Below are positions 57,780 to 64,000 of a stretch of DNA of 64,000 nucleotides, piece by piece. The first letter of the stretch is position 1; every line of letters starts with the position of its first letter. The notes beneath the pieces were generated by a model. That model had not been told where the DNA came from. It made no database searches and saw only the letters and a list, made by a program, of their open reading frames with translations. The stretch spans positions 62,001-126,000 of the forward strand of contig NZ_SAVB01000009.1 of the NCBI RefSeq assembly GCF_004022265.1. The letters are read 5' to 3'. The DNA comes from Paenirhodobacter ferrireducens (GTDB lineage Bacteria; Pseudomonadota; Alphaproteobacteria; Rhodobacterales; Rhodobacteraceae). The translations under genes were made by a program, and so were the position numbers.

Positions 57780-59288
57780 TCAGACCACCATGCAGACGGT
57801 CTTCGTCTCGAGGTAGTTCTCGAGCCCGTTCGGCCCGTTCTCCACCCCCCAGCCCGAGGTCTTCATCCCGCCCTTCGGCAGCTCGGGCGAGAAGTAGCTG
57901 TGGCAATTCACCCAGACCGTGCCCGCCCGCACCGCTGCCGCCATCCGGTGCGCGGCGCTCAGGCTTTCGGTCCAGACCGAGGCGGCAAGGCCGTAGTCGG
58001 TGTCATTGGCGAGCGCCAGTGCCTCCTCGGGCTCGTCGAAGGGGGTGATCGCGGTGACCGGGCCGAAGATCTCCTCGCGCATCAGCGCCATGTCGGGGGT
58101 GACGCCGGCAACGACCGTCGGCGCGAAGAAGGCCGGTGCCTCGGCAAAGCCCGTGCCGCCCGCCAGCACCTCCGCCCCCGCGGCGCGCCCGCCCGCGACA
58201 TAGGCCGCGACGCGCGCCGCCTGGTCCGGGCTGACGAGGGGCCCGAGGTCCGACGCCGGGTCGAGCCCGTGGCCAAGCCGCAGCCGCCCCGCCTCGCGCG
58301 CCAGCCCCTCGGCCATCGCCTCGTAGAGCTTGCGCTGCACATAGACGCGCGAGCCGGCAACGCAGACCTGCCCGGAATTGGCGAAGATGCCGCGTGCGAC
58401 GCCGGGGATGGCGAGCGACAGGTCGGCATCGGCCATCACGATCGCGGGCGACTTGCCGCCGAGCTCCAGCGTCAGCTTCTTCAGATTGCCGCGGGCCGAG
58501 CCGAGCAGGATCCGCCCGACCTCGGTCGAGCCGGTGAAGGCGACCTTGGCGACGCCGGGGTGACGGGCCAGCGCATCGCCCACCTCGGCGCCAAAGCCGG
58601 TCAGCAGGTTGACGACGCCCGCGGGCAGCCCCGCCTCGAGCATCAGCTCGCACAGCCGGATCGCGGTGAGCGAGGTCTCCTCGGCCGGTTTCAGCACCAC
58701 GGTACAGCCCGCGCACAGCGCCGGTGCCAGCTTCATCGCGGCCATCAGCAGGGGCGAGTTCCACGGCGTGATCGCCGCCACCACGCCGATCGGCTCGCGC
58801 CGGGTGTAGGCCATCACCTGCTTGCCGGCAGGCGCATAGCCGATCGAGGGGGTGATCGCGGTGCCGAGGATCTTGCTCGCATAGCCCGCATAATAGCGGA
58901 ACTGCGCGATGGCGCCCGGGATCTCGCCGAAGCGGGCGGTGGCGAAGGTCTTGCCCTGATCGAGGCTTTCAAGCTCGGCCAGTTCGTCGGCGTGCGCCTC
59001 GATCGCATCTGCGATCTTCCACAGTAGCGCGCCGCGCGCCATCGGCAGCATCCGGGCCCAGTCGGGGCGGGAAAGCGCCGCCTGGGCCGCGGCAACGGCG
59101 GCCTCGGCCTCGGCCGCGCCGGCACGGGCGAGCGTGGCAAGGGGGGCTCCGGTCGCCGGATCGGTGGTCTCGAAGGTCGCGGCGGTGGCGATCCATTCGC
59201 CGTCGATCAGGATCTTCTTCGCGCCGCCCTGCAGAAAGGCGCGCGCGCCCTCGGTCTTCGGGGCATGGGGGATGAGGCTCAGGGTCAT
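57780..59288 (-). CDS. Aldehyde dehydrogenase (NAD-dependent)
   Basis: The 502-residue product is an ALDH-superfamily enzyme oxidising an aldehyde to its acid. Motifs: TPWNSPLLMAAMKLAPAL and KPAEETSLTAIRL for NAD binding, FTGSTEVG, catalytic Glu in LELGGKSP, catalytic Cys309 in NSGQVCVAGSRVYVQ, and EIFGPVTAITPF. Length is normal. The substrate is unknown. The start at 59288 overlaps the stop of the Fe-S subunit gene in ATGA, so it belongs to the leftward cluster with the molybdenum hydroxylase, the oxygenase and the amidohydrolase. It may oxidise an aldehyde released from their substrate. Confidence 0.94.
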   Translation of the reverse strand: MTLSLIPHAPKTEGARAFLQGGAKKILIDGEWIATAATFETTDPATGAPLATLARAGAAEAEAAVAAAQAALSRPDWARMLPMARGALLWKIADAIEAHADELAELESLDQGKTFATARFGEIPGAIAQFRYYAGYASKILGTAITPSIGYAPAGKQVMAYTRREPIGVVAAITPWNSPLLMAAMKLAPALCAGCTVVLKPAEETSLTAIRLCELMLEAGLPAGVVNLLTGFGAEVGDALARHPGVAKVAFTGSTEVGRILLGSARGNLKKLTLELGGKSPAIVMADADLSLAIPGVARGIFANSGQVCVAGSRVYVQRKLYEAMAEGLAREAGRLRLGHGLDPASDLGPLVSPDQAARVAAYVAGGRAAGAEVLAGGTGFAEAPAFFAPTVVAGVTPDMALMREEIFGPVTAITPFDEPEEALALANDTDYGLAASVWTESLSAAHRMAAAVRAGTVWVNCHSYFSPELPKGGMKTSGWGVENGPNGLENYLETKTVCMVV

Positions 59289-59755
59289 GGCAGGTCTTTC
59301 AGGCGGTCGCGGGCGGTTCTCGCGCCGCGCAGGATCGAGTGGTAGCCGGTGCAGCGGCACAGGTTGCCCTCGAGCGCCTCGGCAATGCGGGCGTCATCGG
59401 GCAAAGGGCGGGCCGCGAGCAGCCCCGCCAGCGACATCATCATGCCGGGCGCGCAATAGCCGCACTGGAAGGCGTTTTCCTCCTCCATCGCGGCGGCGAG
59501 CGTCTCGCCCACGGGCAGGGCGGCAAGCCCGGCGATGGTGGTGATCGCGCGGCCCGCAACCTGCCAGCCCGAGAGCAGACAGGCGTTCACCGCGGCGCCG
59601 TCCAGAAGCACCGTGCAGGCGCCGCAGCGGCCGATGGCGCAACCCGCCTTGACCTCGGTCGCGCCAAGCCGCTCGCGCAGCGCATCGAGCAGGGTTTCCT
59701 CGGCGTCGATCGTCGCCGGGGCGCCGTTCAGGGTGAAGGCGAGGGGCGGGCTCAT
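59285..59755 (-). CDS. [2Fe-2S] subunit of a xanthine dehydrogenase-family hydroxylase
   Basis: The 156-residue subunit passes electrons in a molybdenum hydroxylase. It has a plant-type ferredoxin [2Fe-2S] motif (CAIGRCGACTVLLDG with a further Cys in NACL) and the second, helical [2Fe-2S] motif (FQCGYCAPGM and NLCRCTGYHSI). All eight cysteines are present. It is the XdhS/CoxS type. The start overlaps the stop of the large FAD-Mo subunit in ATGA, and its stop overlaps the aldehyde dehydrogenase start. Confidence 0.96.
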   Translation of the reverse strand: MSPPLAFTLNGAPATIDAEETLLDALRERLGATEVKAGCAIGRCGACTVLLDGAAVNACLLSGWQVAGRAITTIAGLAALPVGETLAAAMEEENAFQCGYCAPGMMMSLAGLLAARPLPDDARIAEALEGNLCRCTGYHSILRGARTARDRLKDLP

Positions 59756-62700: not shown

Positions 62701-62781
62701 GGTGCCGCCCGCGACCGGGCGCGCCCCTGCGGCGATGCGGGCGAGCGCGTCGTCGAGCGTCGCGGCGCGGGTGACGCTCAT
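59752..62781 (-). CDS. Fused FAD- and molybdopterin-binding subunit of a xanthine dehydrogenase-family enzyme
   Basis: The 1009-residue protein joins two subunits that are normally separate. Residues 1-230 are an FAD-binding (XdhB/CoxM-like) domain with RPVAGGTAFRLD and RRLATLGGTIGW. Residues 255-1009 are the molybdenum subunit: GGAFGGKDEL, FRGFGANQMSYAIE, LDEIGQGMVASVHAAV, SGSTTASRGGYVVW and the active-site Glu in RGVGELGIGAV. It would hydroxylate an N-heterocycle such as a purine at a carbon, feeding electrons through the [2Fe-2S] subunit. Compared with CoxM the FAD part is shortened (typical subunits have about 280 residues). The ATG overlaps the stop of the oxygenase gene. No stop separates the domains. 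Confidence 0.93.
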   Translation of the reverse strand: MSVTRAATLDDALARIAAGARPVAGGTAFRLDAAAGKPVPADLVDIGALLPKGIAKNRIGAGTDLETLRWESVPLLSAAAADVAAPNIRRLATLGGTIGWRAGCLLPALLALDAQVGTTHGPRPLADWLARPEGLVLSVTVLPLARQIWRKTGLRAGFCPSIIAAAGSFSMEDGRITAVRLAVGGGAVAPARLPETEGWLLGRPLATLDRAALGARIEAEIAAPDCAFRSARYRRRVAANALVAGLVGLAPLRRPARPRPAPAPLPDLTELSRTAGEDRWHMREDMPAKVRGTLAYMTDVRAEGMLVGRILRAAHPHAEILAIDTTAAETLPGVRAVVTHRDVPGLNAFGILLQDQPALCADRVRYLGDAVAAVAAIDAETAERALSLIRVDYRPLPLVEDMEAALAPGAPALHAAGNLVTEVGLSRGDLAAGFAGAAHVVEDTYVTPRQMHGFMETEGGWAAPEGEGVIVCAGGQHGARDRMQLARILALPEDRIRVVTSPTGGAFGGKDELTVQPALALLALKARVPVRLHLSRAESVLAGTKRNPFVIRMRTGCDAEGRLVAQEVEALADSGAYASLSPGVLETAMEHAAGPYRVENIRTHGRLAYTNNGTGGAFRGFGANQMSYAIECQIDRLAALCGLDPVEIRRRNLRRAGEPGFLGQKVAPTEKLSEMLDVAAASTLWAPAAVRADEVTGTGIALNYQGNGLGTIPTDEARFEIRLEGGRIRVFTGLDEIGQGMVASVHAAVAERLHCARADIEVIFGDTGTAPDSGSTTASRGGYVVWRGVEETAPALAEKILVQASLRLGLPADRLRIVPGGVQAEGGNHSPTLAFSALAPERAETFFAFPKSDYRAGNARFIFAYGVTLARVAISRVSGAVRVLDLEIHTAAGKVIDMASYLGQMEGGLVQGLGFTLTEDMPMTGGRPLARNFDSYLMPTVRDVPERMRATAHEPLDPADPFGPRGVGELGIGAVTPAIANAVADALGAWPATAPFPPETLLAMLEAAR

Positions 62782-63629
62782 TCGGCGGCCATCGCGACGG
62801 GTTCGGCGGTGGTGCCGAAGGTCAGCCCCTTCTCCTTCAGCCAGCGGCGATAGGCGATCGAGGAGCTGTCGGCGCGGGTCGGGATCTCGGCCCGCGGTTC
62901 CAGCGGCAGCAGCAGCGGGCGCTGGTTCTCGACGATGATCCGGTCTTGCAGGAAGATCACCTGCTCGAAGCGCAGAAGCTGGGTCTGCGTCGCCTGCTGG
63001 TCGAGCAGATACATCACCGGCTGCGCCCGACACAGCCCGGCCTCGATCGGGTGGATGAAAAGCGCGATGGCATCCTGCCGCTCGGGGGCCGAGGGGCAGA
63101 CGCGATAGAGCATGACGACGAAGGGATCGGGCACGCGATAGGTCAGGCGGGCGAATTCGCCCTCGGGCCGGGTGCTGGTCATCTGCGGCTGGAAGAAGGT
63201 GCAGTTCGTCGCCCAGACCTCGTCGACCTCGCGGCGGATCTCGGACTTGTAGCCGGGCACTTCGGTGTGCGGCTCGGAGCCGAGGATGTCGGTGTGCACG
63301 AAGGGAAAATGCGCCATGTCGAGAAAGTTCTCGACCACCCTCAGCCCCGAGGCCCGCATGGTCACCCAACCGCAGGGGACGAAGCGGCGGTCGGGTTCCC
63401 CGGCTTCGGCGATGTCGAAGATCTCGCGCCCGGGGGTGCCGAGCGTGGTCCACAGACAGCCGAATTTCTCGCGCACCGGCAGGGCGCGCGCCCCTGATGT
63501 CACCTGCCGGCCCGGCCCGATGGTGATTGGGTGGCCCAGCAGTTTCGTGTCCTCGACCCGGTCGAGGTCGGCAAGCGTGGCGACCGCGTACCAGGCGTTC
63601 AGGGCGACGGGATCTTGCGTGGCGCTCAT
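62778..63629 (-). CDS. Ring-hydroxylating oxygenase alpha-like protein without Rieske domain
   Basis: The 283-residue protein has the catalytic domain of Rieske non-haem iron oxygenases (VanA/NdmA group). The iron ligands are seen as D104-x2-H107-x4-H112 in NFLDMAHFPFVHTD and Asp229 in LQDRIIVENQRP. But the N-terminal Rieske domain is missing: WYAVATLADL and LLGHPITIG are there, and the next stretch, SGARALPVREKFGCLW, belongs after the Rieske cluster in normal members. No CxH or CxxH pair exists anywhere in the protein. Normal length would be about 340-350. It needs an outside Rieske protein for electrons. GAGGAGG precedes the ATG at 63629. The neighbours suggest a purine or other N-heterocycle as substrate. 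Confidence 0.88.
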   Translation of the reverse strand: MSATQDPVALNAWYAVATLADLDRVEDTKLLGHPITIGPGRQVTSGARALPVREKFGCLWTTLGTPGREIFDIAEAGEPDRRFVPCGWVTMRASGLRVVENFLDMAHFPFVHTDILGSEPHTEVPGYKSEIRREVDEVWATNCTFFQPQMTSTRPEGEFARLTYRVPDPFVVMLYRVCPSAPERQDAIALFIHPIEAGLCRAQPVMYLLDQQATQTQLLRFEQVIFLQDRIIVENQRPLLLPLEPRAEIPTRADSSSIAYRRWLKEKGLTFGTTAEPVAMAAE

Positions 63630-63639
63630 CGTGGCCTCC

Positions 63640-64000
63640 TCAGGCATCGGTCCATTGTTTCGAGGCATTCTCGGCGAGCCACGCCTTGCGGCGGGTGAAA
63701 AGGCCGGGGGCAAGGCGGTCGATGCGGGCGATGATCTCGCCCATGTCGCCGGTCTTGAGTTCGCCATCCTCGACGACGATCGCGCCATTGACCATGGTCA
63801 TCGCCACGTCCGAGCCGCGCACCGCATGTACAAGGTTGTGCTGCAGGTTGAACCACTCGCCATCGGGCAGGAAGGGCGTCATCCGCGGCGTGTCGGCGCG
63901 CACCGCGATGATGTCGGCCTTCTTGCCGGGTTCAAGCGCGCCGGTGACCTCGCCGAGCCCCACCGCCTTCGCGCCAAGCGAAGTGCCCATGCGCAGCGCC
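63640..64000 (-). CDS. Amidohydrolase family protein, C-terminal part (start outside window)
   Basis: The last 119 residues of an amidohydrolase are visible; the frame stays open to the edge of the window. The segment GTSLGAKAVGLGEVTGALEPGKKADIIAV, seen as LGAKAVGLGEVTGAL and GKKADIIAV, is typical of the AtzA/guanine deaminase/8-oxoguanine deaminase group, and MVNGAIVVEDGEL is the conserved C-terminal beta-sandwich. The catalytic residues lie upstream. An internal ATG at 63990 should not be taken as the start. It ends 10 bases before the oxygenase gene, so it heads or is early in the leftward cluster. A ring deaminase is the likely role. Confidence 0.85.
   Translation of the reverse strand, partial: ALRMGTSLGAKAVGLGEVTGALEPGKKADIIAVRADTPRMTPFLPDGEWFNLQHNLVHAVRGSDVAMTMVNGAIVVEDGELKTGDMGEIIARIDRLAPGLFTRRKAWLAENASKQWTDA

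Follow-up and report, generated by a model that had tools for sequence, protein, structure and literature searches.

The window, a stretch of 64,000 nucleotides (C61:62001-126000) from a Paenirhodobacter ferrireducens genome of 61 contigs estimated to be 100% complete, encodes an oxygenase subunit that has no Rieske domain. This protein, named P0001, is probably an NdmC-type catalytic subunit whose Rieske cluster is carried by a separate protein encoded in the same gene cluster, P0004, while an NdmE-like GST would assist in the assembly. The kinship of P0001 with NdmC is supported, and the split arrangement appears to be a variation on NdmCDE.

An oxygenase subunit devoid of a Rieske domain

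The P0001 gene (62778-63629, minus strand; 283 aa, NdmC family) is a single open frame whose ATG is preceded by GAGG. It starts 10 bp past the stop of an amidohydrolase gene, and its own stop overlaps the start of a xanthine-dehydrogenase-like molybdenum-hydroxylase gene by 4 bp (ATGA), a tight packing that leaves no spare DNA for a Rieske motif. The first-pass annotation had asserted that the motif is missing without any frameshift or spare DNA, and the gene bears this out. Pfam detected VanA_C in P0001 (7.4e-16), with KshA_C below the cut-off, and found no Rieske domain. The closest solved relatives are SxtDIOX (8.1e-20) and SxtT (1.2e-19), followed by NdmA and NdmB. In the alignments with SxtDIOX and SxtT the offset passes from -1 to +57, so that by manual count about 58 residues are absent, in agreement with the 50-60 residues initially described as cleanly missing in frame; judged by the SxtT alignment, these are the residues expected to bear the Rieske ligands. 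The usual oxygenase alpha subunit contains a Rieske cluster and a mononuclear iron in one chain, a combination that P0001 does not have.

We then considered an alignment of 42 oxygenases including P0001, obtained by thinning at 86% identity the 82 oxygenase matches from 80 related loci (the L032 row was omitted). D104, H107, H112 and D229 are invariant in this alignment; the ENxxDxxH motif was found in 42 of the 42 sequences and CxH..CxxH in none of them, as expected from the earlier claim that the Rieske ligands are absent. Judging by the motif, we take H107, H112 and D229 to be the ligands of the iron, and D104 to be the aspartate bridging to the Rieske histidine of the neighbouring subunit. 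The four residues first assigned to the iron site are all intact, but on this reading D104 is a bridging residue and not a ligand. A conserved bridging Asp of this kind is described in an excerpt of PMC12445004. Since D104 is invariant in the 42 aligned sequences, its conservation suggests that P0001 is still supplied with electrons by a Rieske cluster that binds where such clusters normally do.

The N-terminal remnant of P0001 matched the first strands of the Rieske domain with an hhalign probability of 90% (E 1.5e-6) when half was compared with half; against the complete oxygenase profile the probability fell to 50-54%. Profile searches with the NdmC and VanA families and a structure prediction had been proposed as checks in the first-pass annotation; the former gave the VanA_C match and a match of NdmC to the oxygenase-family HMM, and the latter a catalytic fold (pLDDT 88.1, pTM 0.88), with a TM-score (TMq) of up to 0.84 to SxtT chains.

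The same Rieske-less form, with 99% identity, is carried by Sinirhodobacter hankyongi (G011, locus L023), and the oxygenases of all 80 related loci lack the Rieske motif. In one of them (L058) the frame runs beyond the normal end and CxH..CxxH occurs in this run-on, outside the oxygenase. A relative retaining the Rieske segment, which would have spoken for an artefact, was not encountered in these 80 loci. An assembly error or a frameshift as the cause of the missing Rieske domain is ruled out by the S. hankyongi copy and the 80 motif-less loci.

The gene cluster around the oxygenase

The xanthine-dehydrogenase-like gene adjoining P0001 (59752-62781, minus strand; 1009 aa) encodes a single polypeptide, pucC- and pucD-like, that combines the FAD part with the molybdenum subunit. 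Genes for the 2Fe-2S subunit of the molybdenum hydroxylase (pucE-like; 59285-59755, minus strand; 156 aa) and for an aldehyde dehydrogenase (57780-59288, minus strand; 502 aa) lie beside it, and on the other side of P0001 the window contains the 3' end of the amidohydrolase gene (63640-63999, minus strand), the rest being beyond the window. The free-standing Rieske protein P0004 (C61:131337-131981; 215 aa) and the NdmE-like GST P0005 (C61:130711-131337) are encoded outside the window, both coordinates being given without the stop codon. The P0004 gene belongs to this cluster, at 5.7 kb from P0001, and there is a 4-bp overlap between its stop and the GST start.

A LysR gene, a TPP-enzyme pair, a GMC oxidoreductase and the amidohydrolase separate the P0004/GST pair from P0001. 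On the far side of the pair, divergent genes encode a BMP-type ABC transporter (by manual reading here, and annotated as such in the syntenic L018), an 8-oxoguanine deaminase (580.6 bits for an equivalog cut-off of 532), a second Rieske-less oxygenase and a guanine deaminase (361.7 bits, slightly short of the 375.4 required). The transporter and the two deaminases agree with the purine setting that had been proposed for the oxygenase. The second Rieske-less oxygenase (C61:138640-139503, outside the window; L014:2641-3504) is 55% identical to P0001 and is flanked by the two deaminases.

A free-standing Rieske protein in the same cluster

A search of the whole genome with PF00355 gave three matches, P0004 and two others; from their sequences and adjoining genes we interpret these two as a GbcA-like oxygenase and the iron-sulphur protein of bc1. 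It had been supposed that a reductase with an extra Rieske domain, encoded elsewhere and similar to NdmD, supplies P0001; none of the three matches is fused to a reductase. NdmC of Pseudomonas, which has no cluster of its own and relies on the Rieske domain of NdmD, operates in this way according to excerpts of PMC4408171 and PMC10380055, and NdmC-like and NdmD-like genes adjoin in L103, L104 and L105. In the present genome such a supply is contradicted unless the assembly misses a gene, and we consider it extremely improbable. The Rieske-family search identified one P0004-type protein in this genome, and this single protein appears to serve the two catalytic subunits.

Classical Rieske ferredoxins have about 105 aa. 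P0004 does not share their features, with its 215 aa and its best PDB matches among oxygenase Rieske domains, to which it is nearer (SxtDIOX, 9.5e-25) than to ferredoxins (CarAc, 6.1e-7). In its family the Rieske motif is present in 48 of 48 sequences and the iron motif in none of them. Other oxygenase systems often include a free-standing Rieske ferredoxin, and since the GbcA-like protein found by manual reading is another Rieske oxygenase of this genome, P0004 could be an ordinary ferredoxin of another oxygenase, with P0001 an inactive or regulatory relative. We regard this as improbable given the proximity of P0004 to SxtDIOX, the invariance of the iron ligands and of the bridging Asp in the 42 aligned oxygenases, and the co-occurrence of Rieske and oxygenase genes described below.

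The model of the P0004 homologue from S. hankyongi (pLDDT 93.7) matches whole Rieske oxygenases with a TMq of 0.68-0.73 (24 SxtT/GxtA chains listed) and an rmsd of 4.0-7.6 A for the matches listed. As the Rieske part represents about 119 of the 215 residues, a match confined to this part would not exceed a TM-score of about 0.55. Compared by eye with the P0001 model, the strands and the long helix at the C-terminus look like a catalytic fold that has been reduced. Based on this model, P0004 seems to be an oxygenase subunit that has degenerated, with an intact Rieske domain and a shrunken catalytic domain without iron ligands. Sequence profiles did not reveal any kinship of the P0004-family C-terminus to the catalytic domain (hhalign probability 0.6-0.7%), and because of this the fold model is the sole basis for seeing a former catalytic domain there. 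The missing profile link would also fit a P0004 that docks as proposed through a C-terminal part that is an unrelated docking domain, a reading that we find unlikely since the model matches whole oxygenases and has strands and a long helix at its end.

Co-occurrence of the oxygenase, Rieske and GST genes

Loci were collected by a contig scan with an alignment of three oxygenases, and the 80 loci are the best 80 of 448 confirmed, chosen by the oxygenase alone; they are not independent, as five contigs give two loci each and some species recur. P0004-type Rieske and NdmE-type GST genes were both present within the fetched flanks in 74 of the 80. Each genome of the remaining six (L050, L054, L056, L072, L091, L100) has a Rieske-family match elsewhere, covering model positions 3 or 4 to 218-221 of 226 in five cases and 36-222 in one, and at the genome level the oxygenase gene is accompanied by a Rieske gene for every one of the 80 loci. 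We propose that P0001 and P0004 are partners because their genes belong to the same cluster, the P0004 and GST genes overlap, and both these genes accompany the oxygenase in those 74 loci. In L025/L101, as worked out from the coordinates, two oxygenases have one common Rieske gene.

When the class was sampled evenly, the oxygenase was detected at E <= 1e-40 in seven of 387 genomes, its own included. A full-length Rieske-family match was found in eight of the nine oxygenase-bearing genomes searched, directly beside an oxygenase in five; the exception, G050, has no full-length match in a genome that is 74% complete. Sixteen oxygenase-lacking genomes, hand-picked among the rows listed, gave no full-length match, only partial ones over the Rieske part or none. 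P0001 matched 303 of 72,556 plasmid records at 1e-5, with complete oxygenases such as HpxD among the distant matches, and P0004 gave 143 matches in plasmid records at 1e-20. No partner is visible on the Roseicitreum plasmid (L021), the search having covered the plasmid.

The split form recurs in Rhodobacterales, Hyphomicrobiales, Acetobacteraceae and Rhodococcus. The order Rieske-oxygenase-GST was observed in L019, L020, L143 and L146-L149, the carriers being Shinella, R. johnstonii pRL10, Paracoccus alcaliphilus and, for L146-L149 (four loci), three genomes; the order oxygenase-Rieske-GST was observed in L144 and L145. Rhizobium tumorigenes has the same cluster as that of the window, with both oxygenases and one Rieske/GST pair, and the 8-oxoguanine deaminase was not found in the stretch shown. 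Relatives of the neighbouring genes (best query, E 1e-30) were present in the 80 loci as follows: GMC in 72, the TPP pair in 71 and 72, the amidohydrolase in 68, LysR in 67, BMP and the XDH large chain in 61 each, and ALDH in 57. The 8-oxoguanine and guanine deaminases had relatives in 18 and eight loci at the same threshold; with this gene order, both would often fall outside the flank.

A few further loci stood out. In Lichenihabitans (NZ_CP036516.1, W02, 149187-149842) the Rieske-family match extends over two overlapping frames, which suggests a frameshift or a sequencing error. In Komagataeibacter nataicola (L106:6814-7347) a 177-aa Rieske protein fails the CxH..CxxH motif, one cysteine being replaced, and has as neighbours a VanB-type reductase, a GST and a Rieske-less oxygenase of divergent sequence. 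Another genome of the same family as the present one (L015:9942-13256) has a Rieske-less oxygenase beside two genes read manually as GcvT-type aminomethyltransferase-like, together with a complete Rieske oxygenase and a BMP-type ABC transporter; a one-carbon unit may be transferred there to a folate carrier.

Comparison with NdmCDE and other oxygenases

NdmCDE, the 7-methylxanthine N7-demethylase of Pseudomonas putida CBB5, also combines a Rieske-less NdmC-family catalytic subunit with an NdmE-family GST, and P0004 can be aligned with the N-terminal part of NdmD. In NdmD the Rieske domain is fused to a flavin/NADH reductase, whereas here it is encoded by a free-standing gene in a cluster without reductase. 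According to an excerpt of PMC10380055, NdmCDE is a 3:3:3 complex in which NdmD and NdmE are required for the solubility of NdmC. An excerpt of PMC4408171 mentions ndmCDE homologues in 18 further organisms, including Mesorhizobium; some of them may be of the split form, which would then have been seen already without being singled out. Among the literature matches listed, no paper dealt with an NdmC system having a free-standing Rieske protein.

The P0004-family HMM matched NdmD over residues 7-241 (L103, 129.4 bits), 6-216 (L105, 130.4 bits) and 6-157 (L104, 136.2 bits). NdmC scored 320-340 bits with the oxygenase HMM, the NdmC of a Pseudomonas ndm plasmid reaching 322 bits in support of the kinship first proposed, and NdmE scored 199-218 bits with the GST HMM. 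The NdmD scores are not above that of the complete oxygenase in L015 (138.3 bits, model positions 3-145 only), and only the extension of the L103 and L105 matches past the Rieske domain distinguishes NdmD. Judged by these matches, NdmD resembles a P0004-type protein to which a VanB-type reductase has been fused. Pseudomonas pTmex-577K and pKF715A and Sinorhizobium pSymA (L103-L105) carry the oxygenase, the Rieske-reductase fusion and the GST together. On sequence grounds the pTmex-577K cluster is a genuine ndm cluster, since its NdmA matches PDB 6ick (764.6 bits) and the last 87 residues of its NdmD match PDB 6icm chain D. The NdmD region of P. putida 1290 pPp1290 (L142:8992-12272) is annotated as three genes and the match to its NdmC gene is split in two, a possible sign of a broken ndmCDE set.

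The genomic setting also differs, as the Pseudomonas ndm plasmids encode a nucleobase symporter and the present cluster a BMP-type ABC transporter and purine deaminases. S. meliloti pSymA has two catalytic subunits and a BMP transporter with a fused NdmD, and therefore neither trait is peculiar to the split form. NdmA/NdmB and SxtT/GxtA share the catalytic domain fold and the iron motif with P0001, but contain both metal centres in one chain, while here they are on two chains. A similar arrangement is found on Paracoccus alcaliphilus p429813 (L143), with a free-standing Rieske protein, a Rieske-less oxygenase annotated as '(2Fe-2S)-binding protein', a GST, a BMP ABC transporter and an 8-oxoguanine deaminase, to which a PDR/VanB reductase is added.

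Candidate reductases

No reductase was found in the P0001 cluster: the four PF00175 matches of the genome are on C57, C58, C14 and C7, none near the cluster, and were read manually as GbcB-like (C57), flavodoxin-type (C58), FNR-like (C14) and VanB-type in a dmm-like setting (C7). A reductase gene is likewise absent from 79 of the 80 loci at E 1e-8, the only one being in L042, where it adjoins a 481-aa Rieske ORF. The PDR/VanB reductase of the L143 set is a separate gene, and another one lies beside the related set of Komagataeibacter nataicola. We propose a VanB-type reductase for the split systems because NdmD looks like a P0004-type protein fused to such an enzyme; in this genome the candidates are the VanB-type (C7), GbcB-like (C57) and FNR-like (C14) proteins.

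Phylogeny of the split and fused forms

The oxygenase tree contains 65 hand-picked rows, about half of the matches in the 80 loci. All 59 Rieske-less rows are separated from six complete oxygenases by one branch (support 100/99), at which long branches meet, and P0001 groups with NdmC apart from the complete Rieske oxygenases. The four fused-type rows do not form one clade and are placed among the split ones. An AU test gave p = 0.003 against their single clade in a quick tree without four long rows, for a group named after a tree was seen and with several long rows. In the Rieske-domain tree, a pair of free-standing rows (L144, L145) is intermingled with the three NdmD rows, and this group joins the domains of complete oxygenases (95/95) and does not fall inside the other free-standing proteins. 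The two trees agree only in part.

One possible history is a reciprocal loss, giving two related subunits, one with the Rieske cluster only and the other with the catalytic iron only, held by the GST, with one Rieske partner for two catalytic subunits that differ in substrate specificity; the fused NdmD known from caffeine degraders would be a later variant within the split family. This scenario is tentative and less likely than not, the more so because the Rieske-domain tree agrees only partly with the oxygenase tree.

Proposed mechanism and substrate

P0001 and P0004 would be the reciprocal halves of an oxygenase and would form a complex with the GST. Electrons would pass from NADH to a VanB-type reductase, then to the P0004 cluster and, across a subunit interface by way of D104, to the mononuclear iron, where O2 would be activated and an N-alkyl group hydroxylated with loss of an aldehyde. 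N-dealkylation of a purine by the split oxygenase is likely, and the neighbourhood suggests a modified purine as substrate, for instance a guanine that is methylated or oxidised. The GMC gene and the TPP pair (71-72 of the 80 loci) are not accounted for by a simple demethylation, and their enzymes hint at a larger side chain than a methyl group. L004:7008-9674 carries the GMC oxidoreductase and a two-gene TPP enzyme resembling sulfopyruvate/phosphonopyruvate decarboxylases. The literature search returned no paper joining 7-methylguanine, demethylase and Rieske.

Rieske oxygenases transfer electrons between neighbouring subunits, so in principle the cluster and the catalytic iron need not share a chain. 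Here, the split between the two is complete. If our reading is true, it would provide a natural system for intersubunit electron transfer whose halves can be mutated separately, and a setting for asking what the role of the GST is; it would also guide the annotation of records named 'aromatic ring-hydroxylating dioxygenase subunit alpha' or '(2Fe-2S)-binding protein'.
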